A stretch of DNA of 64,000 nucleotides, from the NCBI RefSeq assembly GCF_040939785.1, contig NZ_CP162553.1:6095001-6159000 (forward strand), read 5' to 3'. The notes beneath the pieces were generated by a model. The model ran no database searches. It was not told where the DNA came from and saw nothing but the letters and a program-made list of their open reading frames with translations. Below are positions 8,701 through 32,252 of this stretch, in pieces (the first letter of the stretch is position 1; each line of letters opens with the position of its first letter). The stretch is from Bradyrhizobium lupini. GTDB lineage: Bacteria; Pseudomonadota; Alphaproteobacteria; Rhizobiales; Xanthobacteraceae. The translations under genes and the position numbers were made by a program.

Positions 8701-8736
8701 TGAAAATCGCTGTTCAGACACTAAATCTGAATTCAT
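8701..8736 (-). promoter_or_regulatory. tandem CTAAAT-type operator upstream of cytochrome b561
   Basis: Two imperfect palindromes, TGAAAATCGCTGTTCA (8701-8716) and CTAAATCTGAATTCAT (8721-8736), are spaced 20 bp centre to centre. The second resembles the best copy at 18681. They lie 91-126 bp before the start codon. The region from 8737 to 9011 holds no gene that I can support. Confidence 0.4.
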
Positions 8737-9011
8737 ACTCCGGTCGGTGAGAATGCCATTGGCAGAGTGTAGCGGCCTTCTATGCTTCGGCTCCTGAGCT
8801 CATCTCACCTGCTCAAGATGCGGCGCATCGCCCGTTCAACGCGGCAAGCAGGGGCGGCGCTTTGCAACAGCCGCACGATGCCTTGCCTAGTTCTCGGGCG
8901 AGCGTTAGCGATGCCGAGGCCGCACATAAATGTTGCCTCCGGCGAACACCGGAGCCGCACCGCCGGCTCGCTCCAGGCCCATTCTGCCTGCAGGTGTCAA
9001 GGCCCCGCCAT

Positions 9012-9146
9012 TCAGCACATCCGGTTGGGATACATCGATGCGAAGGCCGCAGGCTCTTGATCCGCGAAGGACCATGCTGCAAACGCAGATGGAATTGTCG
9101 CCATCGAGATCAGGGCCGCAGCGGTCAGAATCTTGAAAACAGTCAT
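9012..9146 (-). CDS. small secreted peptide (44 aa)
   Basis: The protein begins MTVFKILTAAALISMATIPS, a textbook signal peptide ending in AFA, and leaves a mature tail of about 20 residues (AWSFADQEPAAFASMYPNRM plus Cys). A GGAG ribosome site is properly placed. The gene is similar in design to the short secreted proteins at 15619 and 42873, although the sequences differ. It would be exported to the periplasm; the single C-terminal Cys is notable. Function unknown. Confidence 0.6.
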   Translation of the reverse strand: MTVFKILTAAALISMATIPSAFAAWSFADQEPAAFASMYPNRMC

Positions 9147-9242
9147 ACTCGTCTCCGTTGTCTCACTCGTGCGGAGAGTTCGCGGCTTGCGATGACGGCT
9201 GCTCTGTCAGTGCGTTTCCTTGGAAGTTTCTACGCGAGTGAT

Positions 9243-9367
9243 GTAGGCATTCCTCGCAAGAACCCGGCGTTGTTGCGGATCACTCTTCCGAGAAGGTGAA
9301 ATCAAGTCGGGGCTGCTACGCCATTTATCGACTTATGTTTGCTGCGCGCAGATGCGGGAATGCCTAC
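9243..9367. repeat. inverted repeat pair, possibly a MITE-like remnant
   Basis: GTAGGCATTCC (9243-9253) and its exact reverse complement GGAATGCCTAC (9357-9367) bracket 103 bp with no reading frame. The 125-bp size and terminal inverted repeats fit a miniature mobile element, but no target duplication was established. Confidence 0.3.
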
Positions 9368-9384
9368 GGTACGCAGTGAGAGCC

Positions 9385-9924
9385 TCAATTGTGCGGGACA
9401 TCGTTAGCGTTTGGATCCGATGGGGAAGCCCTGCTCGGTAGGCGGATTTCGACGACGCCGCGGTTAAGAGCCTGATGGCACGAATTGCATGCGTCGGTCA
9501 GGCCGGCGTAGGTCTTGGCGAATGCCGTGCCATCCTTGGCTTGGATCGCATTGTTGAGCTCCCTGAACGGCTGTTCCATGACGGAGGCAATCATCTGCGG
9601 AAGAGAGGTCTGCTGGTCGGTTGGATGGGACCGCCCGAGCCGATCGAATGAGCCACGGAGCGCTCGAAGTTCGTAGGCCGCAAAATCCCAGTTTCCCTCC
9701 TGCTCGGCTCGCCAAAGTCGTTCGTGCCGCGGCTGGATCGTCTCGATCATCAGATCGCTGATGCTCGGCAGATATGGGATAGCAGCAGGCGAGGGCGCTC
9801 CAGGCCCGGCGGCGACGCTGCGCGAGCTCACAAGAGCGATCGCCAGGAAGGCGGCCAGGGCAATTGCGACCATAGCAACCAAGATCGGGCGGCGCCGGAT
9901 GTGTGCTGCTCCTGGCTCTATCAT
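9385..9924 (-). CDS. c-type cytochrome, single heme, membrane-anchored
   Basis: The 179-aa protein has an N-terminal membrane segment (PILVAMVAIALAAFLAIALV) and one heme-binding motif, CNSCH, near residue 145. The overall plan (about 100 helical residues, then CxxCH close to the C-terminus) resembles cytochrome c'-like proteins. It would act in the periplasm as an electron carrier or gas-binding heme protein. It overlaps the upstream cupin gene by ATGA, so the two are translationally coupled. A 48-bp near-copy of its 3' end occurs at 47667. Confidence 0.8.
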   Translation of the reverse strand: MIEPGAAHIRRRPILVAMVAIALAAFLAIALVSSRSVAAGPGAPSPAAIPYLPSISDLMIETIQPRHERLWRAEQEGNWDFAAYELRALRGSFDRLGRSHPTDQQTSLPQMIASVMEQPFRELNNAIQAKDGTAFAKTYAGLTDACNSCHQALNRGVVEIRLPSRASPSDPNANDVPHN

Positions 9925-10343: not shown

Positions 10344-10530
10344 GGCGTCCCGAAGTGATTTTTGATGCTCACTTGGTAAGTTAGCTCGCCTCGACTAGAG
10401 AACCATTATATTCCAGTTTAATGATCTGGCTGGTAGTGGCATACGCAGCTGAGGTGCCAAGCTGATCAACTCCCCAGTGCCGGTCACCGCCGAAGCCGCG
10501 CCGAGCTCTTTGAGCATGCCAACTCTCGCT

Positions 10531-11516
10531 TTAGTAATGCTCAGCTGTCGAACCGATCTTGCCGCGAAATACGAAGTAGTTGATCGCGGTGTAGAGCAGC
10601 ATCAGCGGGAAGACGAACAGGCCGGCGCCCCAGAACATGAAGGCGAGGCTCGCGTGAGGCGCGGCGGCCTCATCGATGGTGATGGCGAACGGGATCATGT
10701 AGGGCCAGAACGAGATCGCGAGCGTGCCGAACGCGGCCACGAAGATGAGTGCCACCATCGGAAACGGTAGTGCATCCTGACGAAGTCGGACGCTTGTAGC
10801 GAGCATGATGGCGGCCAGTGCGCCGGCTATCGGGAAGACAAACAGGGCAGGTCGGTCGAGCCAGCGCGTCATTACCGGAAGGTCCTCCGCCAAGGCGTAG
10901 CCAAATACGATGGCCAGGAAGGCGAACAGGGCCACCGACAAATAGGGAATGAAGCGATAAGACGCCTCGCGAACGTCGGCCTCACACTTCCGTACCAGCC
11001 AGCAAGCGCCCAGCAGTGCGTACCCAAGACAGAGCCCAACGCCGCACAACACCGAAAACGGACTTAGCCAGCCGGAGGCTCCACCGACATAGCGCGCGCC
11101 GACTATCGGAAGACCCTCAACCAGTGCGCCCACCATCAGGCCCTGCATGAATGCCGCGGCCAAGGAGCCGCCCGCGAATGCAGCGTCCCAGATCCACCGC
11201 ATCCGTGCTGCCTTACCACGAAACTCGAACGCGACGCCGCGCAGGATCAGTCCGGCCAGCATCAGCAAGACCGGCAAATAGAACGCCGAAATCAGTGTCG
11301 CATACGCAAGCGGGAACGCTCCCCACAACACGACGCCGGCGCTCACCAGCCAAGTCTCGTTGCCGTCCCAGATCGGCGCGACCGCGTTCACCATCGCGCG
11401 TCGTGGCGCCTCACCAGGGTGATGCCGAACAGAATGCCGACGCCGAGATCAAAGCCGTCCAGCAATACGTAAAGCAGGATGCTGATCGCCAATACCGCGA
11501 CCCAGAACATCACCAT
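10531..11516 (-). CDS. cioB: cytochrome bd-type quinol oxidase subunit II (apparent frameshift)
   Basis: The ATG at 11516, 2 bp after the subunit I stop and with an AGGAGAA site, opens a frame reading FWVAVLAISILLYVLLDGFD and LGVGILFGIT, the conserved CydB N-terminus. The frame is then lost at 11417-11419. The next frame carries MVNAVAPIWDGNETWLV to the end, ISFWPYMIPFAI and FVFRG. Restoring one C (CCC to CCCC) gives GITPGEAPRRAMV and a 328-aa protein of normal length. About eight membrane helices. Subunit II partners CioA in the inner membrane to reduce O2 with quinol. The frameshift may be a sequencing error. Confidence 0.85.
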
Positions 11517-11518
11517 CG

Positions 11519-12925
11519 CTATTCTCCTGCGGTGAGCGGAAGGGCGGGGTTGCCTTGAAGGTCGGCCGCCGACATCGGGCGATTGGGAATGCCGGAGGTC
11601 GCCATCCCGAGGCTGCCTGCGGGGCCTGTCCGCAGCAGGCGGTAGATGTAGTAAATGCCGAACACGAAGATGAAGGTATAGAGTGCGCAGTACACCAGGA
11701 GCGAAATCGCGGCCGTACGAGTCGTCAAAAAGGGTGTCATTGCATCAGCGGTGCGGAGCAGCCCGTAGATGGTCCAGGGCTGGCGTCCGACCTCCGCCGT
11801 GAACCAGCCGGTCAGCGTCGCGATGAAAGGCAGAGGAAAGCTCAGAAAGATCGACCAGAGCAGGAGCGGATTGCGGTGAATCCGGCGCATCCAGCACCGG
11901 TAGGAGCCGAGCCAGCCTAGCGCCAACATCAAGAGGCCGCAGCCTACCATGATGCGGAACGCGAAGAAGGGAATGAGTACCGGTGGCCGGTCCTGAGGCC
12001 GAAAGCTGGTCAGGCCGACTTCCCTGGCATCAAAGCTCATGCTGCCGATCAAGCTGCCGAGAATCGGAATCTTGATTTCGTACCGATTGGTCTGCGAGGC
12101 CGCATCAGGCAGAGCGAACAGAACCTCGCCCGCGGGCTGCTCGTCGTGCCAACGGCCCTCGATCGCCGCGAACTTCGCCGGCTGGTCGTCATGCGCGTAA
12201 TCGCCGACGAGATGGCCAAACAGCAGTTGAATGGGAAGCAGCACGGCAGCTAGATACAGGCCCATCCGAAGCATGATACGGGCTTCCGGGGTGTAGATCC
12301 GTCTCAGCACGTACCACGCTCCCCTGGCAGCCACGCAGAACGCGCCGGTGAGATAGGCGGCGAGCAACATGTGTGGGAAACGCACCCAAACCACCGGGCT
12401 GAAAATGATCTTGAACCAATCGACCGGAATAAAGACGCCGTTTTGCATGGCGTAGCCCACCGGCACCTGCATCCAGCTGTTGTTGACCATGATCCAGAAG
12501 GCTGAGAGCGTCGTGCCCAGGGCCACCATGGCAGTGCAGAAAAGATAAAACCACGGCGGAACGCGCGACCGGCCGAACAGTAGAATTCCAAAGAAGCTCG
12601 CTTCTAGTGCGAAGGCGGTAAAGCTCTCGTAGGAGAGTAGCGGCCCCTGAATCGGCCCCGACATCCGGGAGAGCTCGCTCCAGTTGGTGCCAAACTGAAA
12701 CGCCATCACAATTCCGGAGACGACGCCGAGACCGAAGGCAACGCCAAAGATCTTGAGCCAGAACTCGAAGAGCGCGCGGTAGGCGGGACGTCCGGTCGCG
12801 ATGTGCAATGCCTCGAGAATCGTGAGCCACGCTGCAAGACCGATCGTGAACGATGGAAAAATAATGTGGAAGGAGATGGTGAAAGCGAACTGAAGGCGCG
12901 ACAGAAGCAGCGCTGTGAGTTCCAT
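11519..12925 (-). CDS. cioA: cytochrome bd-type quinol oxidase subunit I (cyanide-insensitive type)
   Basis: The start MELTALLLSRLQFAFTISFH at 12925 is chosen over 12946 because GAGGGAGG lies just before it; this gives 468 aa. The N-terminal HIIFPSFTIG histidine region, the GIVMAFQFGTNW segment (heme b558 Met region) and GWFTAEVGRQPW are the classic subunit I signatures. The periplasmic Q-loop is short, as in CioA rather than enteric CydA. It oxidises quinol and reduces O2 with high affinity without pumping protons, and often resists cyanide or sulfide. It sits between poxB and cioB in one operon. Confidence 0.92.
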   Translation of the reverse strand: MELTALLLSRLQFAFTISFHIIFPSFTIGLAAWLTILEALHIATGRPAYRALFEFWLKIFGVAFGLGVVSGIVMAFQFGTNWSELSRMSGPIQGPLLSYESFTAFALEASFFGILLFGRSRVPPWFYLFCTAMVALGTTLSAFWIMVNNSWMQVPVGYAMQNGVFIPVDWFKIIFSPVVWVRFPHMLLAAYLTGAFCVAARGAWYVLRRIYTPEARIMLRMGLYLAAVLLPIQLLFGHLVGDYAHDDQPAKFAAIEGRWHDEQPAGEVLFALPDAASQTNRYEIKIPILGSLIGSMSFDAREVGLTSFRPQDRPPVLIPFFAFRIMVGCGLLMLALGWLGSYRCWMRRIHRNPLLLWSIFLSFPLPFIATLTGWFTAEVGRQPWTIYGLLRTADAMTPFLTTRTAAISLLVYCALYTFIFVFGIYYIYRLLRTGPAGSLGMATSGIPNRPMSAADLQGNPALPLTAGE

Positions 12926-12936
12926 TGCTGCCTCCC

Positions 12937-14676
12937 TCAGCGCCAAAGATTGGACCGGGCGAGGTCCACGACCTCGTCGCTGCGTCCGCTGATCACGGCC
13001 TTGATCATGTAAAGGGTAAAGCCCTTCGCCATCTCCAGCGTGATCGACGGCGGCATCGCGAGCTCGGTTCGGTTCACAACCGCATCGATGAGAACTGGCC
13101 CGTCGTGCGCGAGCGCCGCAGCGATTCCATCATCGACCTCGGCGGGGTCTTCGAGGCGAATGCCGCGAATCCCGACGGCTTCGGCCATCGCTGCGAAGTT
13201 CGGATTCTTGAGCTCGGTTCCATAGTCAAGAATTCCTGTCGACTTCTGCTCGAGCTCGATGAAGCCCAATGCACTGTTGTTGAACACGACGACCTTCACC
13301 GGAAGGCGCTGCTGAACGAGGGTAAGGAAATCTCCCATCAGCATCGTGAAGCCGCCGTCGCCAGAGAGCGAGATCACTTGCCGACCCGGACACGCCGCTT
13401 GCGCACCGAGGGCTTGCGCCATCGCGTTGGCCATGGAACCGTGCCAGAATGATCCGAGTAGCCAGCGCTTGCCGTTCATCTCGAGATAGCGGGCGGCCCA
13501 CACTGTCGGCAGACCGACATCGCAGGTGAATACCGCATCTTCGGCTGCCTGGTCGCTGATCGCTTTCGCGACCTGCTGAGGGTGGATCAATCCGCCGCCC
13601 GGCCTGCCGACGGCAAGCTCGTCAAGCCCCTTGCGCGCCTTGGCGTAGTGTCGCTGGGCTTGCACGAGATGCGCAGCGTCGGTCTTCTGCGTGAGCAATG
13701 GCAGCAACGCCGCAAGCGTCTCGCTCACGCCGCCAACGACTCCGACATCGACCGAGGCCCGGCGGCTGATATTCTCGGGCCGCAAATCCACCTGCGCAAT
13801 GCGCGCACCGCCCGCCTCCGGATAGAACTGCCTGTAAGGAAAGTCGGTCCCCAGCATCAACAGGACATCGCAATCGCGCATGGCGTAATAGCCGGAAGAA
13901 AAGCCGATCAGCCCTGTCATTCCAACGTCATAGGGATTGCTCCATTCAACATGCTCCTTGCCGCGCAAGGCGTGCACCATTGGTGCTTGGAGCAGTTCAC
14001 CGAGGGCGAGCAGCTCGTCATGGGCGCCCGCGCATCCTGAGCCGCACAAGATCGTCACGCGGCTCGCGTCGTTGAGCAATTTCGCCAGCCGATCGAGATC
14101 GGCGGGAGCGGGTGTGACGACCGGAACAGGTGGTAGCAACATTGCGCGCTTCGGCGGTGGCGCCACTGCAGCGACCTGCAAGGCGACGTCCCCCGGAATG
14201 ACGAGGACTGACGCGCCGCGCTTGCCGACCGCCTCCCGGATCGCGGTCTCCAAGGCGCGCGGCATCTGGTGGGATCCGGACACGAGCTCGCAGTAGTGGC
14301 TGCATTCCCGAAACAGCTCTTGCGGGTGCGTCTCCTGAAAGTACCCGCTGCCGATTTCAGGTGAGGGAATGTGTGCAGCGATCGCAAGAACGGGCACGCG
14401 CGAGCGGTGGCAATCGAATAGTCCATTGATGAGGTGAAGATTGCCGGGTCCGCAACTGCCCGCGCACACAGCGAGTTCGCCCGTCAGATGCGCGTCGGCG
14501 CCGGCGGCAAAGGCCGCCACTTCCTCGTGCCTGACGTGAATCCAATCGATCTTCCCATGGCGGCGAATAGCGTCGGTGAGGCCGTTGAGACTATCGCCGA
14601 CCACGCCATAGATGCGTTTGAGTCCCGCAGCCGCGAGGGTTTCCACGAACTGGTCGGCGACTGTTTTGGTCGGCAT
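12937..14676 (-). CDS. poxB: thiamine-pyrophosphate pyruvate oxidase (quinone-dependent, PoxB-like)
   Basis: The 579-aa protein has the three-domain TPP-enzyme plan. The N-terminal Pyr domain contains [17 protein letters not shown] and the catalytic Glu in [17 protein letters not shown] central FAD/Rossmann-like domain includes [20 protein letters not shown]. The C-terminal PP domain contains [19 protein letters not shown] followed by FNNSALG, the GDG...NN motif for Mg-TPP. PoxB converts pyruvate to acetate and CO2 and passes electrons to membrane quinone. It is first in an operon with the bd oxidase (12 bp to cioA), which forms a short pyruvate-to-quinol-to-O2 chain. A tandem operator lies 110-146 bp upstream. 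A fragment of a second copy is at 17601. Confidence 0.9.
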
Positions 14677-14785: not shown

Positions 14786-14822
14786 TTAAATTGGCTTTTA
14801 GGCCGACTAAATTCGAGTTTAC
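14786..14822 (-). promoter_or_regulatory. tandem CTAAAT-type operator upstream of poxB-cioAB
   Basis: TTAAATTGGCTTTTAG (14786-14801) and CTAAATTCGAGTTTAC (14807-14822) are 21 bp apart centre to centre in an AT-rich island inside GC-rich DNA. No other gene or structure was found in the intergenic region 14677-15043. Confidence 0.5.
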
Positions 14823-16379: not shown

Positions 16380-17333
16380 CTATGCCGCTTCCATCTGTTT
16401 ATTGCGCTCCTCCGGCTCGGAATTCGATGCCGACCTGTCCGGCCTGAGGTTCCTCCTGGCGGCCCGCTTGACCTTTTCAAAGGCGCAGGTTTCGATTTGC
16501 CGGACGCGCTCGCTAGAGATCGACAGTTCGCACGCCAGGACTTCAAGCGTGGCAGGGCGGTCGTTTAGCCGGCGCGCCTCGAACACGCGTCGTTCGCGTG
16601 ACGTAAGAGTATCCACTGCGGCGCGCAGCGCGCGTGCTTGCTGCTCAGATTCATCATGTTCGGCCAGGAGCGCCTCCGCCGTCAGCGATGGGTCGACCAG
16701 CCTCGACTGCCAGTCCGCCGTCTCGCTATCTTCGCTAACCAGCCTGTTTAGCGACAGGTCGCCATTCAGTCGGCGGTCCATCTCCAGAACGTCGCGAGGC
16801 GAAACCTCCAGCCGCTTAGCGATGGCATCGGCCACCTCCGGCGTGAGGCTGGACGTCTCGCTGGCAAGCTTCCTCATTTCGCGCCTGAGACAGAAGAACA
16901 GCTTCTTCTGGGCAGCCGTCGTTCCGATCTTGACCAGTGACCAGGATCGAAGAATGTAATCGTGAATCGTAGCCTTGATCCACCAGAGCGCGTAGGTCGA
17001 GAAACGTGAGCCGCGACCCGGCTCGTAACGTGTTGCGGCCATCACCAGACCGAGATTGGCTTCGGAGATGATGTCAGCGAGCGGGAGACCATATCCGCGA
17101 TAGCGCTTCGCCACGCTCGCGGCGAGCCGAAGATGGCTAGTCACGAGGGCGTCGGCAGCGGCTTGATCGCCCAGCTCTTGCCAGCGGCGCGCAAGCTGCT
17201 GCTCTTGCTCGTGTTCAAGCATTTCGAAACGGCGGATGGCGCCAGCGTACCGTCCAAACGGGGATGACTCCGTCCGATTGATCGCCGTGGTTTTCAAACT
17301 GGTTTGCGCGACGGCTACGTTGCAGTCCTGCAT
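16380..17333 (-). CDS. rpoH: RNA polymerase sigma-32 (RpoH-family) factor
   Basis: The 317-aa protein has region 2 signatures LRLAASVAKRYRGYGLPLAD and RFSTYALWWIKATIHDYILR, with the RpoH-box-like QKKLFFCLRREMRKL just after. Region 4 is LTSRERRVFEARRLNDRPAT with the recognition helix ISSERVRQIETCAFEKVK. RpoH-type factors direct heat- and oxidative-stress promoters, and bradyrhizobia carry several paralogs. The N-terminal ~20 residues and the tail are divergent. A decayed copy of the same gene is at 19150. A tandem operator-like element lies 63-98 bp upstream. Confidence 0.9.
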   Translation of the reverse strand: MQDCNVAVAQTSLKTTAINRTESSPFGRYAGAIRRFEMLEHEQEQQLARRWQELGDQAAADALVTSHLRLAASVAKRYRGYGLPLADIISEANLGLVMAATRYEPGRGSRFSTYALWWIKATIHDYILRSWSLVKIGTTAAQKKLFFCLRREMRKLASETSSLTPEVADAIAKRLEVSPRDVLEMDRRLNGDLSLNRLVSEDSETADWQSRLVDPSLTAEALLAEHDESEQQARALRAAVDTLTSRERRVFEARRLNDRPATLEVLACELSISSERVRQIETCAFEKVKRAARRNLRPDRSASNSEPEERNKQMEAA

Positions 17334-17395
17334 GATGCAGCTCCGATGATTGAGCCCAGCATCTATGGATTAAGGAACGACCTACCGATGCGCTA

Positions 17396-17431
17396 TTAAA
17401 AGGCAATTCCGGTGTTTAAATTCGCTGTTAG
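17396..17431 (-). promoter_or_regulatory. tandem CTAAAT-type operator upstream of the sigma factor
   Basis: TTAAAAGGCAATTCCG (17396-17411) and TTAAATTCGCTGTTAG (17416-17431) are 20 bp apart, at the same distance from the start codon as the pair before the HWE kinase. The match to the palindrome is weaker here. A similar half remains before the decayed sigma copy (about 19789-19806). Confidence 0.35.
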
Positions 17432-17600: not shown

Positions 17601-17928
17601 GCGCCAGCGTTTGCCGTTCTTCGCGAGATAGCGTGCGGCCCACCTGGTTGGCAGGCCGACATCGCAGGTAAAACTCGAATCCTCGGTCGCCTGGTCACTG
17701 ATCGCCTCGGCGATCTGCTGGGGATTGATCAGCCCCTTTCCAGCAAGCTCGTCGATCGCCTTGGCACAGTGGCGCTGGGCCTGCTCGAGATGCGCCGCAT
17801 CGAACCTCTGATTGAGGATTGCGAGCATGCCGCAGGCCACATCCGCCGCGGCCCGGCCGTCGATATTCTCTGGCCTAAGATCCACCTGTGCTATGCGCGT
17901 GCCACCGGCTCGCTTCGCTACGTGTTCA
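17601..17928 (-). pseudogene. fragment of a second poxB-like gene
   Basis: The frame contains [40 protein letters not shown] and [20 protein letters not shown], which align throughout with the central part of the intact poxB at 12937 but are clearly diverged. It lacks both catalytic domains' ends. It is fused at its 3' side to the RND fragment, and its 5' side runs into the end of the HWE kinase gene. Confidence 0.75.
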
Positions 17929-18660: not shown

Positions 18661-18696
18661 CTAAACTCGCGTTTCCTGCACTAAATCCAAATTTAG
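18661..18696 (-). promoter_or_regulatory. tandem CTAAAT-type operator upstream of the HWE kinase
   Basis: CTAAACTCGCGTTTCC (18661-18676) and the perfect-armed palindrome CTAAATCCAAATTTAG (18681-18696) are 20 bp apart. The second is identical over 16 bp to the site at 30244. Confidence 0.55.
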
Positions 18697-24176: not shown

Positions 24177-24195
24177 GCAACGCTCCCCGAAGCAA

Positions 24196-24801
24196 TCAGC
24201 AGCCTGATGAAGATGAAAAGGTGTTCGTGCCGGTAGCACCGGTCACCGTGGAGGCGATGGAGGCGGACGTGCATGACGTCGCGGTCGACATGTTAGTGCC
24301 GTACGCAACGCCCGAAGTGTTAGGTAGAGGTACCGTTGTCATCGGGCTTTCGCCGCTGGTATCGGCCTCCGTTGCACCCAGCGGGATCGTGCTGCCAACC
24401 ACGCCCGCCGTCGAAGCCGCAGGCTGGCTTGAAGAGGCTGTGCTGCTTGATGTCGTGGCGCAGCTTGAATTCGGTGTCATGCCGCCGCCGTCGAAGGTCG
24501 ATGACGAGGATGAAGCGCTGCTCGTTGCACCCGTAGAAGATGTCAGCGACGTGCCCATTGCGCCCGTCGAGCCAGTCGCATTGCAGGACGCGCCGATTGT
24601 CGGACCTAGACCGCCGGAATCGATTTCGGTTGCCCCAAGCGGGACGCCGGCGCCAGTAAAGCTGCTACTCGTTCCGTTGGAGCCCAGTGTGCCCATCGGG
24701 GAAGTCGCACCCATTGCTGAGGGGCCGGTGGTCGTTTGCGCGTCGCTGGCTGCGCTGGCGCAAAGCAGCGCAAGCGCTGCCACGAACAATCGTCGCCGCA
24801 T
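24196..24801 (-). CDS. Ser/Thr/Gly-rich secreted protein in the RND operon
   Basis: The ATG at 24801 with AGGAG gives 201 aa. The signal peptide MRRRLFVAALALLCASAASD ends before AQT. The mature protein is low complexity (over half Ser, Thr, Gly and Ala) with two PLGATE motifs, the motif GATSPMGTLGSNGT and a few cysteines, and no recognised fold. It probably lies in the periplasm or at the surface. It is the first gene of the RND operon (19 bp before the adaptor). A broken relative with GATSPLGTLGSNGS is at 62689. Function unknown. Confidence 0.7.
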   Translation of the reverse strand: MRRRLFVAALALLCASAASDAQTTTGPSAMGATSPMGTLGSNGTSSSFTGAGVPLGATEIDSGGLGPTIGASCNATGSTGAMGTSLTSSTGATSSASSSSSTFDGGGMTPNSSCATTSSSTASSSQPAASTAGVVGSTIPLGATEADTSGESPMTTVPLPNTSGVAYGTNMSTATSCTSASIASTVTGATGTNTFSSSSGC

Positions 24802-24940: not shown

Positions 24941-24976
24941 CTAAATTCTCTGCGGCAAAGTTAAACTTGAATTTAG
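24941..24976 (-). promoter_or_regulatory. tandem CTAAAT-type operator upstream of the RND operon
   Basis: CTAAATTCTCTGCGGC (24941-24956) and TTAAACTTGAATTTAG (24961-24976) are 20 bp apart, 140-175 bp before the first gene of the operon and just after the end of the sensor kinase gene. Confidence 0.5.
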
Positions 24977-25034: not shown

Positions 25035-26429
25035 TCAGCTGACTTGCGGTGGAACGCGCTCGAAGACGATCTCCGCAACGCAACCCCGTCCGGTTGGCGC
25101 TGGCGACAGCCCGAACTGAACTCCGTGCAATTTTGCGATCGCAACCACCAGGCTCAGACCCAATCCAAGCCCAGGCTCTCCGCGGCTTTTGTCGGATCGA
25201 TAGAAGCGTCTGGTGACGAGGTCACGCTCGCTCGGTGCGATTCCGCGCCCGGTGTCGCTGACGTGCACGATGCTCTTTTCTCCGATGCAGCAGAGCTTGA
25301 GCTCGATATGCCCGCATTCCGGCGTGAATTTCACGGCATTGTCGACGAGATTTGCAATGGCCTCGAACAGCAGGTCGCGATCGCCCTGAACCACCATCTT
25401 CTCTTTGGCTTCTACGACTAGCATTACGCCTTTATCTTTGGCCATAGGCTCGTAGAGCTCTCCAACGTCGCGTACCAACTCCGCCAGGTCGACCTCCCGG
25501 AACCCCTCCAAACGCCGACTATGCTCGATTTCGGTGATGCGGAGCAGGGCAGTGACCATCGTTAATGATTGGTCGAGCCCGCCGATGGCGCGATCGACAG
25601 CCTCCTTCAGCTCGTCAAGAGTCTTCGCTTTGTGCCGTCCGCTCTCCAGGGTCATCCGCACATTCGTGAGCGGCGTTCGCAGGTCGTGAGCGATGTCGTC
25701 GCCCACTCCGGCAACACTACGCAGAAGCTCCTCCGTTTCATCCAGCATTGCATTGATAAGCCGCGCCAGCTCGGTGAAGGGAGCCCCACCTTGTTCCGGC
25801 AAGCGTTCGCGCAATTCGCCCGCCACGATGCGTTGGATCTGCCGGTTGTACTGGTCGAGCCGTTGTTGCGTCCTGATGCTCAGGAATGCTCCAAACAGCG
25901 AACCAAGGCACAGCGCCGGAATAAGCCCCCATGCGACTGCTCGCTCTATCGTGCTGCCGATTTCAGACAGCTCGTCGGTGTTCCGGCCGATGAGGAGGAT
26001 CGCTCCATCATCAAGCTTGCGTGCGACAACGCGCGCCAACTGTTGCTCGCGGCCGGCGGCGTCGATCCGCACCACTGAAAGCGGCTGTGGTGGGGTGTCT
26101 GGCTGTAGGTTGCGCGGCAGACTTTCAATGTTTCCGATCACACGGTTTCCATGTGCGTCGAAGAGGCCGCCGAGCTTCACCCGCCGCGGATCCCCGTCGA
26201 GGTGTTGCTGGAGGGCTTGGTGCCGCTGCTGTGGAGGAAGGCTGGAGAACGTATTTGCGCGATCGATAATCAGTCGATCGACACTCGCGGTCACGTATCT
26301 GGAAGTCGGCCAGTAGATGAAGGCTATGATCAGGAAGACGCAGATCGCGAACGCGCCGATTGCGACCATGGTCCCGCGAAGAATGGTCGATCGGAAGGCT
26401 CTCGTTCGAATAATCTTAGGAAGGGGCAC
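25035..26429 (-). CDS. two-component sensor histidine kinase (EnvZ/QseC type)
   Basis: The 464-aa protein has membrane helix 1 (MVAIGAFAICVFLIIAFIYW), a periplasmic domain of about 130 residues, helix 2 (VAWGLIPALCLGSLFGAFLS), then HAMP, HisKA and HATPase. The phospho-acceptor is in DDIAHDLRTPLTNVRMTLES; the N-box is NLVDNAVKFTP, G1 is DTGRGIAPSE and G2 is GLGLGLSLVVAIAKLHG. It senses an unknown periplasmic signal and phosphorylates the response regulator whose gene overlaps it by 14 bp upstream. Its position next to the RND operon suggests control of efflux. Confidence 0.93.
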   Translation of the reverse strand: MPLPKIIRTRAFRSTILRGTMVAIGAFAICVFLIIAFIYWPTSRYVTASVDRLIIDRANTFSSLPPQQRHQALQQHLDGDPRRVKLGGLFDAHGNRVIGNIESLPRNLQPDTPPQPLSVVRIDAAGREQQLARVVARKLDDGAILLIGRNTDELSEIGSTIERAVAWGLIPALCLGSLFGAFLSIRTQQRLDQYNRQIQRIVAGELRERLPEQGGAPFTELARLINAMLDETEELLRSVAGVGDDIAHDLRTPLTNVRMTLESGRHKAKTLDELKEAVDRAIGGLDQSLTMVTALLRITEIEHSRRLEGFREVDLAELVRDVGELYEPMAKDKGVMLVVEAKEKMVVQGDRDLLFEAIANLVDNAVKFTPECGHIELKLCCIGEKSIVHVSDTGRGIAPSERDLVTRRFYRSDKSRGEPGLGLGLSLVVAIAKLHGVQFGLSPAPTGRGCVAEIVFERVPPQVS

Positions 26430-27093
26430 GCAACATAAATCCTTCCCCCCGGATATTGAGGATCATCGGCGGCTGGCCGGCCGGATCGACCTTGCGGCGG
26501 AGCCGGCCCATATGCACGTCGACGAGATTGCTCTGCGGCACGAACTTGTAGTTCCAGACTTCTTCAAACAGCATCGCTCGGGTGAGCAGTTGGTCGACCC
26601 GGCGCATCATGTATTCGAGCAGCCGGAACTCGCGCGGCAAAAGATCAAGCGGGCGACCCCCGCGCGCGGCGGTACGCTCCAGCAGATCGACTTCAAGTGG
26701 TCCGACCCGCAGCACGGTGTCGCGGCTTTCACCAGGCCTTCGCAGCAGGGCCTCAATCCTCGCAATCAGCTCCAGGATCGCAAATGGTTTGGTCAGATAG
26801 TCGTCACCGCCGGCCCGCAACCCACGAATTCTGTCATCCACCGCTCCGAGGGCGCTCAAGACCAGAACGGGGGTGCGCACCTGCTCCTGCCTGGCAACCT
26901 CGATGATGGTCAAGCCGTCGATTCCGGGAAGCAGACGGTCGACGATCATGACATCGGACCCGCCTGCGCGCGCTTTGTCGAGTCCCTCAATGCCCGTCGC
27001 CGCCCGGTCGACCTCATATCCACGGCCGGCGAGTTCAGCCGCGATCTGCTGGGCGGTCTCGTCGTGATCCTCGATCAGCAGCACCTTCGGCAT
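26416..27093 (-). CDS. OmpR-family response regulator
   Basis: The start MPKVLLIEDHDETAQQIAAE at 27093 with AAGGAAG gives 225 aa; upstream in-frame codons lack support. The receiver domain has the acidic pair ED, the phospho-Asp in VMIVDRLLPGIDG and the Lys in DYLTKPFAILEL. The C-terminal winged helix includes LPREFRLLEYMMRR and NLVDVHMGRLRRKVDP. It binds tandem DNA sites as a dimer when phosphorylated by the adjacent kinase. A tandem operator-like element lies 126-160 bp upstream, consistent with autoregulation, which is not shown. Confidence 0.93.
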   Translation of the reverse strand: MPKVLLIEDHDETAQQIAAELAGRGYEVDRAATGIEGLDKARAGGSDVMIVDRLLPGIDGLTIIEVARQEQVRTPVLVLSALGAVDDRIRGLRAGGDDYLTKPFAILELIARIEALLRRPGESRDTVLRVGPLEVDLLERTAARGGRPLDLLPREFRLLEYMMRRVDQLLTRAMLFEEVWNYKFVPQSNLVDVHMGRLRRKVDPAGQPPMILNIRGEGFMLRAPS

Positions 27094-27218
27094 TGCGACT
27101 TCCTTTGCACCACGGCCGCTCGCATGGCAGGAGCCTGCCCAATCGCCACAGACAAGGCTGACCGTCTGTTGCGAAATTGTACAATAATCACATAGCCCTA
27201 GCACGAAGCCGAGCTTCA

Positions 27219-27253
27219 TTAAATCCAGTTTAGTCTTGTAAATTCGACTTTAT
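27219..27253 (-). promoter_or_regulatory. tandem CTAAAT-type operator upstream of the two-component operon
   Basis: TTAAATCCAGTTTAG (27219-27233) and GTAAATTCGACTTTAT (27238-27253) are about 19-20 bp apart. The first is one base shorter than the other copies. They lie in the leader of the response regulator gene. Confidence 0.5.
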
Positions 27254-27365: not shown

Positions 27366-29552
27366 TCAGCTGGCGCGGAGGGCCGCCAACACTTTGGGCG
27401 GCGTGAACGGCACCGAGCGCAGGCGTACGCCAGTAGCTTCGAACACGGCCCCGGCAATGGCCGAAGGGACGACGGCGCAGGTAGGCTCCCCGCCGCCCCA
27501 GGGGACCTCTTGCGGGCGATCGATCAGATCGATCACGACCTCTGGGATCTCAGGGAAGGTCAGAATAGGATAGCTGGCCCAATCAAGGCTGGTGACCATG
27601 GAGCGATCGAAGGTCACTTCCTCCTTCAGGATTCGGCTCACGGTTTGGACAACGCAGCCCTCGATCTGATTGCGCAGTCCGTCAGGGTTGATGATCTGGC
27701 CGCAATCATGCGCCACGTAGAAGCGTTTCACCGCAACGGCGCCAGACTTGCGGTTGATTTCCACATCGGCGACGGCGCCGACATAGGTGCGCATCAGCTC
27801 GTATTTCACATAGGCAAGCCCGCGTCCCGTGACGACCTCGGCATTGCGATCCGGTTTTCGTCGCTCACGCCATTTGCTGAGCTTAGCCAGTCGCTCCAGC
27901 AGTTCCTTGCCGCGCGCGTCCGCGAGATGTTGAAGCCGAATGTCAAGTGGATCCGCGCCAACGCTCGCCGCAATCTCGTCAAGGAAGGATTCGTTGGCAA
28001 AGGTATTTTGCAGGCGCCCGGGCGAGCGGATCCAGGCAGGTCGCAGGGGTGTCGACTGCAATCGGTGGGCGGTGGTCGTGACGTTTGGAATGTCATACGG
28101 AATCGAGAGATCGTTGAGCACGCCGCCAGGGCTGAGCTTGCCGAGACTGTTGAGCCCGGCAAGGTCAGCGCCGGTGAGCGGCACAAAGGTCGCCGATCCG
28201 TCAGGCACGAACAGTTCGGATTCCCACGCCGCCAGATTTCCCTGCGGATCGACCCCGGCTCGCATGTCGAGTAGTGTCGGCGGTCCCTTGGGATCCCAGC
28301 CGTGCTCGTCCGCGCGCATCCATTGCACCCTGACCGGCGTGCCGACCGCACGCGCCAGCAGCGCCGCGTCGGCCGCGGCGTCCTCGTGCCCATTGCGGCC
28401 ATAGCAGCCCGCGCCCTCGACATAGACGCAGCGAACGTCCGCGTCGGATAATGCCAGCATCGCAGCCAGTTGCTTGCGCAAATCGTGTGTCGCCTGCGAG
28501 GCGGTCCAGCAGGTGAGCTTGCCATCGGTAAAGGTCGCCACGGCACAGGACGGGCCGATCGAGCCGTGGGTGTGGATCGCGAAATCATAGGTCGACCGAA
28601 GCTTGCGTGGCACGGCACCAAGGACCGCACGCGAGCTGCCGAGGCGGCTGGTGACCTCGTCATGCACGACACGCGTATTGCGTACGTGCTCCCAGATCTT
28701 GCTCTGGTCCGGGAGGTCACTCCAGCTCGACCAGGTCACCTTCAGCTGTTGCGCGGCCTTGATTGCGCTCCATTCGCTTTTGGCGACGACGCCAAGAAAG
28801 TTGCTGATGCGGACGATCTTCATAATTCCAGGTATGTCGGCGATTGAAGACTCGTCATAGGAGACGAGTGTCGCACCGAACCCCGATGGACGCACCACTC
28901 GGCCGTGCAGCATCCCGGGGATTGTGAAATCCTGCACGAAAGTGAAGCGGCCATCCACCTTGTCCGGAATATCCAGGCGGCGCACCGGCTTGCCGACGAC
29001 GGTGTAATCGCCAGGCGCCTTCTGCGGCGCGTCCTTTTCGATGTCGAGAGCAAGGCTCGTCGGTTCAACGAGACTCCCAATCGGCAGCCGTTCGCCGCCT
29101 GCGGCAGTGACGACACCGTTTCGGATCGAAAGCGTGGAAATGTCGCGATCCATCTGCGCGGCCGCGCGGCGCAGGAGGGCTCGACGCGCCGTGGCCGCAG
29201 CGCGGCGCAGCTGCATGCCGCCGTTCTGAATCGAAAAGCTTCCGCTGGTCGTGCCCTGGTCCGGCGTGAGCGCGGTGTCGCCTTCGATGAGCGTGATCTG
29301 ATTGATGGAGACGTCAAGCTCCTCCGCGACGATCTGGGTCAATGCGGTCCGCACGCCGGTGCCGAGATCGACCTTTCCGGAATAGACCGTCACTGTTCCG
29401 TCGTGTGCGACAGCAAGGAAGCCGTCGACCCGATCGGTCGACAGGGATCTTCCGGCGGCGGGCGTAGCGGCGCGTGCCATCGGTAGGCTGAAGGCCACAA
29501 TGAGCGCGCCACCTGCCTGCAACAGCTTGCGCCGATTGATCATCTCGTCCAT
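27366..29552 (-). CDS. molybdopterin-binding hydroxylase large subunit (isoquinoline 1-oxidoreductase beta / aldehyde oxidase type)
   Basis: The ATG at 29552 with AAGGAGA gives 728 aa. A Tat signal (MINRRKLLQAGGALIVAFSL) directs it to the periplasm. The body is the xanthine-dehydrogenase-family molybdenum subunit: GKVDLGTGVRTALTQIVAEE, TTSGSFSIQNGGMQLRRAA, GAGCYGRNGHEDAAADAALL, and near the C-terminus VPWGGGEPTCAVVPSAIAGA with the likely catalytic Glu. It oxidises an aromatic N-heterocycle or aldehyde, adding oxygen from water; the substrate is unknown. The [2Fe-2S] subunit lies 11 bp upstream. The FAD subunit is absent, as in iorAB-type enzymes. Confidence 0.9.
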   Translation of the reverse strand: MDEMINRRKLLQAGGALIVAFSLPMARAATPAAGRSLSTDRVDGFLAVAHDGTVTVYSGKVDLGTGVRTALTQIVAEELDVSINQITLIEGDTALTPDQGTTSGSFSIQNGGMQLRRAAATARRALLRRAAAQMDRDISTLSIRNGVVTAAGGERLPIGSLVEPTSLALDIEKDAPQKAPGDYTVVGKPVRRLDIPDKVDGRFTFVQDFTIPGMLHGRVVRPSGFGATLVSYDESSIADIPGIMKIVRISNFLGVVAKSEWSAIKAAQQLKVTWSSWSDLPDQSKIWEHVRNTRVVHDEVTSRLGSSRAVLGAVPRKLRSTYDFAIHTHGSIGPSCAVATFTDGKLTCWTASQATHDLRKQLAAMLALSDADVRCVYVEGAGCYGRNGHEDAAADAALLARAVGTPVRVQWMRADEHGWDPKGPPTLLDMRAGVDPQGNLAAWESELFVPDGSATFVPLTGADLAGLNSLGKLSPGGVLNDLSIPYDIPNVTTTAHRLQSTPLRPAWIRSPGRLQNTFANESFLDEIAASVGADPLDIRLQHLADARGKELLERLAKLSKWRERRKPDRNAEVVTGRGLAYVKYELMRTYVGAVADVEINRKSGAVAVKRFYVAHDCGQIINPDGLRNQIEGCVVQTVSRILKEEVTFDRSMVTSLDWASYPILTFPEIPEVVIDLIDRPQEVPWGGGEPTCAVVPSAIAGAVFEATGVRLRSVPFTPPKVLAALRAS

Positions 29553-29563
29553 GGCGTGTCTCC

Positions 29564-30025
29564 TTACGAGCTTGCCGCAGCGCGCATGACCGCGCGCAGA
29601 ATCCGCAGATGCGTTCCGCAACGGCAAAGATTGCTCGCCAGTTCTGTCTTGATGTCTTGCTCGCTCGGTTTCGGATTGCGCGCCAAAAGGTCCGCCGACT
29701 GCATGATCATGCCGTTGATGCAGTAGCCGCACTGGACTGCCTGCTCTTCGATGAACGCGCTTTGCAGCGGATGGGGATTGCTGGCCGTGCCGAGGCCTTC
29801 GAGCGTCACGATGCGGCCGGACACTGCGGACAGCGGTGTAACGCAGGACCGAACTGCCGTTCCATCGACGTGGACGGTGCAGGCGCCGCATTGGCCGAGG
29901 CCGCAACCGAAGCGCGGTCCATGCAGACCAAGCTCATTTCTCAACACGTAAAGCAGGGGAGTATCAGGATCGTCGACGGTTATTGAAGCGACTTTACCGT
30001 TCACGTTCAAGGAAGTCGTTGCCAT
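29564..30025 (-). CDS. [2Fe-2S] subunit of the molybdenum hydroxylase (isoquinoline 1-oxidoreductase alpha type)
   Basis: The start MATTSLNVNGKVASITVDDP at 30025 gives 153 aa. Two iron-sulfur clusters are encoded: a plant-type one with GCGLGQCGACTVHVDG plus a downstream Cys (VRSCVTPL), and a C-terminal four-helix one with QCGYCINGMIMQ and NLCRCGTHLRI. It carries electrons from the molybdenum subunit to a cytochrome or other acceptor. It has no signal peptide and is probably exported bound to its Tat-bearing partner. Confidence 0.92.
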   Translation of the reverse strand: MATTSLNVNGKVASITVDDPDTPLLYVLRNELGLHGPRFGCGLGQCGACTVHVDGTAVRSCVTPLSAVSGRIVTLEGLGTASNPHPLQSAFIEEQAVQCGYCINGMIMQSADLLARNPKPSEQDIKTELASNLCRCGTHLRILRAVMRAAASS

Positions 30026-30243
30026 CGTACAATTCCTGCCTTGCGCTCCGATCGCCAAGCCTCTTGCCGGGTTGGAGCGCGATGACGCCGCGATGAAAGA
30101 GCCGTAAGTGCCGTGCACCGAGCGGGTTAATGACAGGAGCGAAGTAGGGAGGTGGCGCACTCGCCCCAAGCAAAAACTTTAAGCATCAATTTGAATTGAG
30201 CGCTCGGTAGCTCTGCGTCCGACTGGAGCCCCGCTCATCAAAC

Positions 30244-30259
30244 CTAAATCCAAATTTAG
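30244..30259. promoter_or_regulatory. CTAAAT-type palindrome between the hydroxylase pair and DUF305
   Basis: CTAAATCCAAATTTAG is identical to the site at 18681-18696. It is placed 96-111 bp before the DUF305 gene and about 220 bp before the hydroxylase operon. No second copy was seen at 20 bp. Confidence 0.5.
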
Positions 30260-30354
30260 TTGAATGCGCCATCTGGTGCGCCGACTTCGAGAAATCGAGA
30301 GCCTGGCATTTCATCAGTCCGGCTGGGCAACGGGTCATCCCTTTGGAGGTCAAC

Positions 30355-30816
30355 ATGGCACTTTCCTCGCGCACAATCTTGCTCTGCACGATGCTGCTAA
30401 CGGCTGCAGCTTCGCCTTCGTGGGCACAGAATTCAACAAGCGCGAACCCTGGCACAGGCAGCGCCGGTCGCAGCGAGCAGCAATTCATGGTCGACAATGA
30501 CCTGGCGATGAGTGACATGACCAGAGCGATGCTTGTCAAACCAACTGGTGACGTGGACCGTGACTTTGCTGCAATGATGATTCCTCACCATCAAGGCGCG
30601 ATTGATATGGCGCGCGCCGAGCTGAAATACGGTCACAACGAAGACCTTCGGCGGCTGGCGCAGAACATCATCGCGCAACAGCAGCAGGAGATATCAATCA
30701 TGCGCCGCGCCACCGGGGAAGCTTCGCAGGCAAGCGACAAGCCGTTGCCGCCATCGAGGCCAAAGCCCGATGCTGCGAATCGTCCAACCGCAATGAACGC
30801 GATGCACATGAAGTGA
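30355..30816 (+). CDS. DUF305 family secreted protein
   Basis: The start MALSSRTILLCTMLLTAAAS at 30355 with GGAGG gives 153 aa. After the signal peptide (cut after SWA) comes a four-helix-like DUF305 domain with the hallmark DFAAMMIPHHQGAIDMARAE and AQNIIAQQQQEISIMRR. The family is related to ferritin-like helical bundles and some members are periplasmic copper-binding proteins; the His pair and Met residues fit. The C-terminal MNAMHMK adds possible metal ligands. Divergent from the hydroxylase pair. Confidence 0.85.
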   Translation: MALSSRTILLCTMLLTAAASPSWAQNSTSANPGTGSAGRSEQQFMVDNDLAMSDMTRAMLVKPTGDVDRDFAAMMIPHHQGAIDMARAELKYGHNEDLRRLAQNIIAQQQQEISIMRRATGEASQASDKPLPPSRPKPDAANRPTAMNAMHMK

Positions 30817-30931
30817 ATTCGAGCAAATCCCGCTGTGGAGCAAAGGCGAGCAGCCTGCACAACGCGCCACTGAAGGAGATCGCCGGATCGGTAACCAAGA
30901 GAAATGACGGCTAAGCTAAAGGAGCTTTGCG

Positions 30932-32002
30932 ATGAGCGAGAATACTCGCGATGAATTCCAACCTAACGGCAATGGTGTTCGACGGCGCGCGGTGCTGGTC
31001 GGCGCGGGGCTGGCAGCAACCGGGTTGGCGCTATCAGGCGGCGTTGCAGCAGCTGAGCCAGTAAAGCATGCATCGGTAGCCGAGCCGGTCAGCGGGCCCT
31101 ATCCGAAACCTCCTGCCGGAAGAACCGCCGGGCCGATCCTGCCAGGGCGCGGCTCGGCGCTGGTCGGCAAGATCGCGGTGGTGACCGGTGCGGCCCGCGG
31201 AATTGGCCGTGCGATTGCCATCGAATTCGCTGCCAACGGTGCTGATATCGTTGCCCTCGACATTGCAGGACCGGTCAGCCCCACTGCCGATGCAATTCCG
31301 GCCACGGAGGCTCAACTCGCCGGGACAGTATCGGAGATCGAGAAATATGGCCGGCGCGCCACCGCAGTCAAAGCGGACATTCGTGACATGAAGGCTTTGC
31401 GAGCAGTTGCCGAGAAAGTGGAGCGTGAACACGGAAAGATCGACATCGTTGTCGCCAATGCCGCCATTCAGGGGTGGAAACCGCTGATGGAAATGGACGA
31501 CATGGACTGGCGCGACCAGATCGAGAATAATCTCAATGGGACTGCGAATACCGTTCGCGCCTTTGGACCCAAGCTGGTCGCCCGCAATCAGGGTCGCATC
31601 ATTCTGCTCTCTTCGATGCAAGGCAGAATGGGCACGATGGATGGGGCAAGCTATTCCGCGTCAAAATGGGGCATCTTGGGGCTGATGAAATCGGCGGCCC
31701 TGGAGCTCGGTCGGCACAACGTCACCGTCAATGCAATCTTGCCGGGACTGGTCGGCACGCCTTTGACCTACAATGAGCAGCGGTTCCGGGCGGCAATGGC
31801 ACAATCTAACCGCCAACCCCCGGCGCACCCGACCGCGCAGGAAACCTGGGACGCTCGCGCTCCGACTGTGCCGCTTCAGGTGGGATGGCTGCAGCCCGAA
31901 GACATCTCGCCGGTAGCGGTCTTCCTGGCATCCGACGCCGCTGCGCTGGTAACCGGCAGCGAATTTGCAGTTACCGGTGGAGACGCGGCCAAGGTCAGCT
32001 GA
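30932..32002 (+). CDS. Tat-exported short-chain dehydrogenase/reductase
   Basis: The start has AAAGGAGCTTTGCG before ATG; the protein is 356 aa. The N-terminus has an RRR motif and hydrophobic core (VRRRAVLVGAGLAATGLALS), a likely Tat signal. Then a classical SDR: VVTGAARGIGRAIAIEFAAN (cofactor loop), VVANAAIQGW (NNAG-like), catalytic Ser in LLSSMQGR and YSASKWG. The 30-residue insert after GADIVALDIAGP is typical of mycofactocin-type SDRs. Tat export of a folded, cofactor-loaded SDR would place the reaction in the periplasm. The substrate is unknown. Confidence 0.85.
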   Translation: MSENTRDEFQPNGNGVRRRAVLVGAGLAATGLALSGGVAAAEPVKHASVAEPVSGPYPKPPAGRTAGPILPGRGSALVGKIAVVTGAARGIGRAIAIEFAANGADIVALDIAGPVSPTADAIPATEAQLAGTVSEIEKYGRRATAVKADIRDMKALRAVAEKVEREHGKIDIVVANAAIQGWKPLMEMDDMDWRDQIENNLNGTANTVRAFGPKLVARNQGRIILLSSMQGRMGTMDGASYSASKWGILGLMKSAALELGRHNVTVNAILPGLVGTPLTYNEQRFRAAMAQSNRQPPAHPTAQETWDARAPTVPLQVGWLQPEDISPVAVFLASDAAALVTGSEFAVTGGDAAKVS

Positions 32003-32226
32003 TCGACACGCGCGAATACGCGTGCTGCTCGTGTGGTCGGGCGGCACGTGCCGAAGCGCTCCACAGTCTTCTGCACATCACCCGAATCTGTAGCGCGGTC
32101 GCGGTGGCGCGAAACAACTGCCAACGTGCACGTGCACATCAGCGCGTTTTCATTCGCCACCGAAAGCGGGGATGCGCATCGAGCGCAGCAAATGCCGCTT
32201 CAACGCGTCCCAAGCTATGAAGGAAA

Positions 32227-32252
32227 GTTTAGTCACCTTAAGGTCTATTTAA
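32227..32252 (+). promoter_or_regulatory. CTAAAT-type half-site pair upstream of the citrate-lyase cluster
   Basis: GTTTAG (32227-32232) and ATTTAA (32247-32252) are right-hand half-sites exactly 20 bp apart, 101-126 bp before the first gene. The left arms are not conserved, so this is a weak match. The rest of 32003-32352 holds nothing recognised. Confidence 0.25.

Follow-up and report, generated by a model that had tools for sequence, protein, structure and literature searches.

A predicted operator ahead of neighbouring stress and respiration operons of Bradyrhizobium lupini, and a local two-component system as its likely regulator

In PhoB/OmpR-type regulons (the Pho-box kind), a response regulator with a receiver and a winged-helix domain acts from sites just upstream of the -35 element, and its own operon and neighbouring operons are among its targets. 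Proteins of the OmpR family are best known for binding direct repeats, palindromic boxes being known for some members, and the metal and redox regulators of the CusR/HprR/CopR type combine a palindromic site with RND efflux as a target. Here we analyse a stretch of 64,000 nucleotides (herein the window; positions 6,095,001 to 6,159,000 of NZ_CP162553.1) from the one-contig, 7,826,318-base genome of Bradyrhizobium lupini, in which an AT-rich inverted repeat, CTAAAT-N4-ATTTAG (CTAAATNNNNATTTAG), recurs ahead of unlike genes, and in which an OmpR/PhoB-type response regulator is encoded next to its partner sensor histidine kinase (table 1). This locus resembles the PhoB/OmpR-type regulons in domain make-up, in the position of its sites and in its predicted targets, namely the regulator's own operon and its neighbours, and differs from them in that the site is an inverted repeat, CTAAA-N6-TTTAR, and in that the regulon is packed around the regulator gene. 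With the CusR/HprR/CopR type it shares the family, a palindromic site of similar size and an RND efflux target, whereas the half-site here is CTAAA and the predicted targets include a sigma factor as well as genes for respiration and organic acids. Among solved full-length structures, the closest to the response regulator by sequence is PrrA (E 3e-49).

Three further systems bear comparison. The rpoH3-ragCD/ragAB locus of Bradyrhizobium japonicum is alike at the level of general description, having two-component genes beside an RND pump and an RpoH-like sigma factor, and Krummenacher and Narberhaus are said to have worked on the rag genes. The PhyR/EcfG/HWE general stress response likewise brings together an HWE kinase, an alternative sigma factor and stress-type genes; its EcfG promoters, however, are of the GGAAC...GTT kind, unlike the element described here, which sits upstream of the -35 region. 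The FNR/FixK box is TTGAT-N4-ATCAA; an identity with this box was set aside, the half-site here being CTAAA, and no Crp domain was found among the 40 open reading frames (ORFs) scanned in the window. We found no description of the operator or regulon among the papers listed in searches of the open-access literature, most subscription work lying outside that scope.

We propose, at a probability of roughly 80%, that an autoregulated two-component system activates an organic-acid, redox and envelope stress island via this predicted operator. The element would be the operator of the local system (kinase 25035-26429, response regulator 26416-27219): the phosphorylated regulator, presumably dimeric, would bind CTAAA-N6-TTTAA/G, an inverted repeat of 16 bp, and at part of the promoters a further copy lying 20 bp upstream; once bound it would contact RNA polymerase at promoters whose -35 element directly follows the repeat and whose -10 element lies 22-24 nt after it. 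It would activate its own operon together with those for efflux, the RpoH-like sigma factor, PoxB with a bd-type quinol oxidase, a molybdenum hydroxylase, a DUF305 protein, a cupin and citrate lyase; in relatives, genes of the formate-dehydrogenase type and oxalate-decarboxylase-like genes would join the set. The local sensor-regulator pair hence probably switches about ten neighbouring stress and respiration operons on together. The proposal draws on what was computed, namely the sites themselves, how they are kept upstream of several orthologs, their promoter geometry, their placement outside genes and their occurrence in genomes that have the regulator; that the regulator physically binds them, that it activates and does not repress, and that the signal is a stress of the organic-acid, redox or envelope type are predictions from sequence.

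The pattern CTAAAT-N4-ATTTAG, at no more than two mismatches, occurs seven times in the window against 0.54 expected (100 shuffles, standard deviation 0.72, largest count 3), which bears out the first-pass annotation of this DNA in its claim of a recurrent element ahead of at least eight unlike genes. The two copies that it had reported as identical over 16 bp, at 18681 and 30244, are exact and are the only exact copies in the genome. Across the genome, at the same two mismatches, there are 39 places against 36 for the backwards-read control pattern, and the window holds seven of the 39 where about 0.32 would be expected by length (Poisson ~5e-8). The element is therefore local rather than global in its own genome, and a global regulon there is rejected, the excess being confined to the window; the shared regulon claimed earlier stands as a local one and not as a genome-wide excess. 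The pattern learned from relatives (CTAAANNNNNWTTTAATKG, at most one mismatch) tells the same: its three matches in the genome all fall in the window (control 1).

A matrix with a term for the -10 element was built from the sites of relatives, to the exclusion of the genome itself and the near-identical G071 and G078 (G and L numbers are our own handles for genomes and loci). It gave 15 matches of at least 12 bits on both strands, at 12 distinct places of the window, against 0.9 expected in simulated sequence. The match at 18658 is the tandem partner of the 18681 site. The site of the citrate-lyase cluster, previously described as weak, in fact tops the ranking (27.5 bits with -10), and the sites at 10406-10421 and 41805-41820 had been missed. 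The copy at 46314 is, as it had been called, an orphan, weak (12.4 bits) and with no gene seen behind it; a match at 12216, inside cioA, was taken as probable chance. When the best score within 350 nt ahead of each start is considered, the eleven predicted targets reach 10.7-24.3 bits (b561 10.7, poxB 19.4, sigma 11.9, HWE kinase 19.1, RND operon 14.1, response regulator 11.8, DUF305 24.3, molybdenum hydroxylase 13.3, citrate lyase 21.9, cupin 20.9 from 10406-10421, and 21.2 for the 41805-41820 site), whereas eight operon-internal or unrelated starts (HK, cioA, SDR, Memtr, HpcH2, DUF1194, AKR and LysR) stay at or below 1.5. The b561, sigma and response-regulator sites are weak when scored singly, that of b561 being the least certain.

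Such counts bear on the simplest alternative, that the element consists of AT-rich chance matches or of copies spread by local duplication. Decayed duplicates of poxB, RND and sigma genes do lie at 17.3-20 kb, and a stretch near 19.8 kb looks like a second, more decayed copy of the sigma leader and its degenerate site; the shuffles, simulations and reversed-pattern controls, the unlike flanks and the conservation across species nevertheless leave this explanation hardly credible.

The arrangement of the promoters would suit an activator. By eye, the window sites, read in gene direction, have at several promoters a -10-like hexamer 22-23 nt past the last TTTAA/G. This geometry was examined in 87 non-redundant sites of relatives, picked solely by CTAAANNNNNWTTTAATKG at no more than one mismatch and with the window left out: TAnnnT starts 22-24 nt after TTTAA in 27 of the 87, and at any other offset in at most four. 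A second upstream copy (at least 7/12) stands at exactly -20 in 11 of the 87, other offsets from -44 to -15 giving at most two. In the window, a tandem spacing of 20-21 bp was seen by eye for poxB, HWE kinase, RND, b561 and sigma, and one of 19-20 bp for the response regulator, while a distal TTTAG is all that accompanies the citrate-lyase site and the DUF305/molybdenum-hydroxylase and cupin sites look single; the tandem described earlier as usual thus fits several window promoters and only a minority of the relatives' sites. A clean tandem, CTAACAGCGAATTTAG-N4-CTCAATTCCAATTTAATGG, is kept at the sigma promoters of several species.

The repeat lies directly upstream of the -35 position, its centre at about -42 to -45 and the second copy, if any, 20 bp further up. 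A repeat that abuts the -35 position at a preferred distance from the -10 has the layout of an activator site, and the fixed place just upstream of -35/-10 is that of activator-dependent (class II-like) promoters. That the regulator instead represses from these operators until the signal relieves it seems quite unlikely: promoter-near operators can serve either sign and autoregulation fits both, but the repeat stands upstream of, and not across, the predicted -35/-10, at the preferred distance, which is the typical place of an activator. Less likely still is that the island's own RpoH-like sigma factor reads the element as the -35 region of its promoters, an idea lent some colour by the fact that the sigma gene goes with the regulator, and through it with the motif. 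The 22-24 nt from repeat to -10 are long for a two-part sigma site (spacings of 13-18 are usual), the dyad symmetry and the second copy at -20 fit a dimeric factor, and the sigma gene itself carries a site.

Two outcomes had been named in advance as telling against a regulon, namely sites as frequent inside genes as outside and no conservation upstream of orthologs, and neither was seen, the sites lying mostly outside genes and being kept ahead of orthologs. Outside predicted coding sequence lie 16 of 17 sites (69.5 kb), 27 of 29 (134 kb) and 49 of 52 (380 kb) in three sets from relatives, of which the second and third share L122, with a coding fraction of 67-74% by our own simple gene caller; in two relatives' islands 43 of 46 sites are outside genes. 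The reversed pattern occurs 0, 0 and 1 times in the three sets.

Orthologs of the regulator had best E values from 1e-95 down, the next genomes reaching 1e-73 or weaker. By a training-free consensus (at least 10/12), a site precedes the response regulator in 20 of the 28 best-scoring opened loci (L087-L114); among the rest, L092 matches only downstream and seven have no match. A second test applied the matrix to 19 regulator loci reopened wider (L116-L134) and to 27 loci chosen for the sigma gene, a site being at least 12 bits within 350 nt ahead of a start and the gene common to L119 and L203 (G103) being counted once. Here sites precede the response regulator in 19 of 19 loci, a partly circular figure as some of these sites trained the matrix; the count obtained without training, 20 of 28, is cleaner. 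Sites also precede 11 of 12 DUF305 starts, 22 of 33 distinct RpoH-like sigma genes, 14 of 31 RND-type genes (most of them only 26-28% identical to the window RND), three of six cupin starts and 2 of 21 HK genes (seven of 28 rows, cut at locus ends, left out). Random placement in these loci gave 11.6% at 12 bits or more, a high control value because the loci are small and site-rich. No site of at least 12 bits was found in these loci ahead of cioB (0/2) or AKR (0/3), and G001 and G099 have same-direction sites about 1.5 kb upstream of the window-type MFP. The sites of the regulator, DUF305 and sigma genes are thus well kept, and the links to cioAB, MFP and the hydroxylase were seen only in the window and its near relatives. 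No conservation was seen for the b561 site, two distant b561 matches in fetched loci scoring -1.1 and 11.9.

The regulator that the first-pass annotation had put forward, the local OmpR-type protein, has gained in likelihood, and the annotation's reservation, that the regulator is not established, continues to apply. An ortholog is present in 67 of 146 genus genomes. At no more than one mismatch, CTAAANNNNNWTTTAATKG has 340 matches (reversed control 124) in these 67 and 27 (control 136) in the 79 genomes without the regulator (Mann-Whitney 7e-11 over the 146), and all 21 genomes with at least four matches have the regulator. The RpoH-like sigma gene follows the same distribution (58 genomes with both, 9 with the regulator only, 2 with sigma only, 77 with neither; Fisher 2e-28); of the two sigma-only genomes, G078 has a regulator gene broken over three frames (G078:C1, L226 2547-3227) with its target sites kept, and in G089 there is only a paralog, the sigma gene having no site ahead of it. 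This paralog (~52%) occurs also in genomes without the regulator, and differs in the C-terminal DNA-binding segment that is near-invariant among the opened regulator orthologs. Among other genera of the family, a 65-83% ortholog is found in five of seven genomes with an exact site and in 1 of 10 without one (9 of the 11 genomes with an exact site were tested for an ortholog); the distance from an exact site to the regulator gene behind it is 78 nt in G340 and about 290 nt in G357, of the own genus. Taken together, the co-occurrence, the sites at the regulator's own gene, the invariant DNA-binding segment and the orthologs in other genera make the local two-component system the likely regulator. 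Its kinase gene lies within about 120 bases of the regulator gene in 19 of 20 loci (L115-L134) and about 2.6 kb off in L119. A second histidine kinase, 50% identical to the local one, has an operator copy of its own beside the sigma gene (L122 14657-16265; L124 3783-5391).

Some other island-borne transcription factor might bind the element, the two-component genes being mere targets, and an AraC-type gene that follows a site in G138 and also occurs on plasmid p184_1, or the MarR-like ORF that adjoins the HWE site in the window, could be cited for it. We consider this unlikely, though the least so of the alternatives: the regulator's own gene has a site in the 20 of 28 and 19 of 19 loci given above (loci chosen for the regulator), no AraC domain was found among the 40 window ORFs scanned, and the HWE and MarR genes, found in G078, occur in none of the 20 loci L115-L134.

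Several observations weigh against the local two-component system as activator of a shared regulon, and should be set beside those above. The element is an inverted repeat and not the direct repeat usual for the OmpR family; the second copy at -20 in 11 of 87 sites is in direct order; and the TGG/TTG that follows the repeat is partly forced by the search pattern. Twenty of the 67 regulator-bearing genomes have no match at one mismatch or fewer, two with four matches barely differ from control (G032, 4 vs 3; G125, 4 vs 4), and a match of 12.1 bits precedes an RND gene in G089, which lacks the regulator. Three of nine opened exact-site genomes have no close ortholog (G054 of the genus, G255 and G379), and in G187 the ortholog is present and an exact site is not. 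The window's own regulator site and that of the near-identical G071 (L086) fall below 10/12 in the training-free test; 11 of 33 sigma genes, 17 of 31 RND-type genes and three of six cupin starts lack a site, and none of at least 12 bits was found ahead of cioA (0/3), window-type MFP (58-66%; 0/4) or 2Fe-2S genes (0/4) in the conservation loci. Among 25 distant loci (L005-L029), a match of at least 10/12 lies just ahead of the regulator only in L009 and L015.

Conservation of the element beyond the family is accordingly weak: Methylorubrum extorquens AM1 has one matrix match (17.5), about 90 nt ahead of the regulator and pointing away, Mesorhizobium sp. 131-3-5 has one (18.1), 104 nt ahead of an RND adaptor, and Beijerinckiaceae RH AL1 has no matrix match. 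Conservation of the regulon across part of Bradyrhizobium and into neighbouring genera is supported. Among the 120 proteins listed, close homologs of the response regulator that bear an organism name come mostly from Bradyrhizobium (84% in several strains), with 75% homologs on plasmids of Bradyrhizobium sp. 183 and 184.

Table 1. Predicted operator sites and genes of the window (gene identities by Pfam, 40 ORFs scanned; positions counted from the first letter of the window).
Feature	Position	Strand	Remarks
OmpR/PhoB-type response regulator, candidate regulator	26416..27219	-	Response_reg 7.5e-22, Trans_reg_C 6.5e-22; probable start near 27093-27099; genus orthologs 70-77%
Partner sensor histidine kinase	25035..26429	-	HAMP, HisKA, HATPase_c
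Tandem site, response regulator	27219..27253	-	-10-like CTATGT 27190-27195, 23 nt away; match 27216, 17.8 bits with -10
Tandem site, operon of ORF 24196-24828, MFP and RND	24941..24976	-	-10-like TACTTT 24913-24918
Tandem site, HWE kinase gene	18661..18696	-	exact copy 18681-18696; -10-like TATTGT 18633-18638; orthologous site in G078 scores 29.9
Degenerate tandem site, RpoH-like sigma gene	17396..17431	-	-10-like TTAATC 17368-17373
Tandem site, poxB-cioAB	14786..14822	-	-10-like TATCTT 14758-14763; 27.4 bits with -10
Site, cupin and p9385 genes	10406..10421	-	-10-like TAACTT 22 nt away; 27.1 bits with -10; same place in G078, cupin sites also in L245 and L279
Weak tandem site, cytochrome b561	8701..8736	-	-10-like TACGTT ~8671-8676; 10.7 bits
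Exact palindrome between divergent DUF305 (+) and 2Fe-2S/molybdenum-hydroxylase (-) genes	30244..30259	.	25.3 bits in + direction
Site, citrate-lyase cluster	32237..32252	+	TACCTC 32275-32280, 22 nt away; kept in G078
Site, 3-hydroxyisobutyrate-dehydrogenase-like ORF	41805..41820	-	ahead of or within 5' end; 23.0 bits with -10; like site in G071
RpoH-like sigma factor, predicted target	16380..17333	-	Sigma70_r2 2e-18, r4 2.2e-11
HWE histidine kinase, predicted target	17918..18598	-	PF07536 5.6e-15
PoxB-like TPP enzyme, first gene of poxB-cioAB, predicted target	12937..14676	-	Pfam
cioA/cioB, cytochrome bd-type quinol oxidase	10531..12946	-	no own site; cioA 1.5 bits
MFP and RND permease	19901..24239	-	permease in two overlapping frames
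Molybdenum hydroxylase subunits (2Fe-2S, molybdopterin), predicted target	27366..30169	-	Pfam
DUF305 protein, predicted target	30343..30816	+	PF03713 1.8e-19
Citrate-lyase cluster, predicted target	32299..39518	+	two HpcH/HpaI, membrane transporter, ligase, CitF, CitX, CitG

In relatives the sites are often clustered as they are in the window, with 25 of 26 within 132 kb in G019, 15 of 15 within 60 kb in G138 and 23 of 28 within 126 kb in G031, so that the operator is concentrated in 60-130 kb islands of three relatives; they are more dispersed in G053 (41 sites) and G025 (34). In two strains the island is carried on a plasmid. A like gene set including the regulator and rpoH is found on plasmid p184_1 of Bradyrhizobium sp. 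184 (NZ_CP064696.1 142448-185014, L324), whose host is a root-nodule Bradyrhizobium. It comprises catalase, RND, a xanthine-dehydrogenase-type hydroxylase, cupin, AKR, the regulator with its kinase, fdhD, a bd oxidase, a second cupin protein, FdhF, AraC, DUF305 and rpoH. Sites of at least 12 bits precede the AKR operon, DUF305, rpoH and, from one shared palindrome, the regulator and a divergent NAD(P)-dependent oxidoreductase; matches with no start behind them lie at 769 and 20892 (inside the kinase gene), and one more lies inside the oxidoreductase gene. No site of at least 12 bits was found ahead of the fdhD, bd oxidase, FdhF and RND genes of the plasmid. With sites ahead of only some of these genes, the target set differs between species.

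In G138, a scan of 10 proteins from those behind 17 sites found a molybdopterin oxidoreductase, FdhD, a di-haem peroxidase, a ferritin-like protein, DUF2231 and a two-domain cupin, which we read as oxalate-decarboxylase-like. The joint presence of functions for oxalate, formate, citrate and pyruvate consumption, an alternative quinol oxidase, peroxide handling and efflux suggests that organic-acid, redox or envelope stress is what the island responds to. Genes that are mostly treated separately (PoxB-cioAB, RND efflux, the RpoH-like sigma factor, the molybdenum hydroxylase and citrate lyase) would be tied into one likely response, which in relatives would include formate-dehydrogenase-type and oxalate-decarboxylase-like proteins; and a two-component system of one major legume-symbiont group, for which we found no described targets, would gain an operator, a promoter architecture and a target list. 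More tentatively, and as somewhat less likely than not, we envisage a self-contained regulon island that comprises one autoregulated two-component system, a dedicated operator at 10-40 promoters, its own RpoH-like sigma factor and in some species a family of ~78-nt two-hairpin small RNAs placed behind that operator, and that would travel as a unit, by inheritance and by exchange, among the chromosomes and plasmids of Bradyrhizobium and its neighbouring genera.

CcsR or cuckoo RNAs of other alphaproteobacteria have two hairpins, and putative small-RNA stretches behind the operator in some relatives recall them. At six sites in G053 (L214, L215, L219, L220), G025 (L242) and G015 (L243/L150), the -10 is followed directly by a stretch of about 78 nt that has a hairpin and a terminator-like hairpin with C-rich loops. 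CcsR is among the RNAs treated in PMC10253847. Rfam gave no match up to E 0.1 at the stretches in L214, L215, L219 and L220, and none in the window. A covariance model built from the six copies (R1; L214 was chosen by eye, the automatic filter having passed 6 of 202 sites and not L214) found copies behind sites outside the training set at G015:6775149, G025:5940285, G028:C188:32088 and G022:C37:1988; among the matches listed, it also matches terminator-like stretches in genomes without the regulator. Of 30 R1 loci opened, five have a site (28.0, 28.2, 26.0, 23.9 and 11.8 bits), all in regulator-bearing genomes, three of the five being training copies. In the B. lupini genome R1 has two matches, the better of which (6041854, outside the window) has no site.

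A few minor features of the genes may be added. The frames of the RND permease (20665-23331 and 19901-20752) are broken or unlike the usual single gene, and in the 3-hydroxyisobutyrate-dehydrogenase-like ORF the NAD_binding_2 match starts only at residue 155, the gene start near 41700 being assumed. Small secreted-looking peptides of one family (start like MKLTTIALAIAFALPS) are encoded behind the operator in G053 (L210), G025 (L228, L229, L234) and G138 (L280 13925-14161). Finally, the decayed pieces of poxB, RND and RpoH-like genes surround the HWE kinase between 17300 and 20000, and the matching stretch of G078 holds an extra histidine kinase that is 50% identical to the local one.

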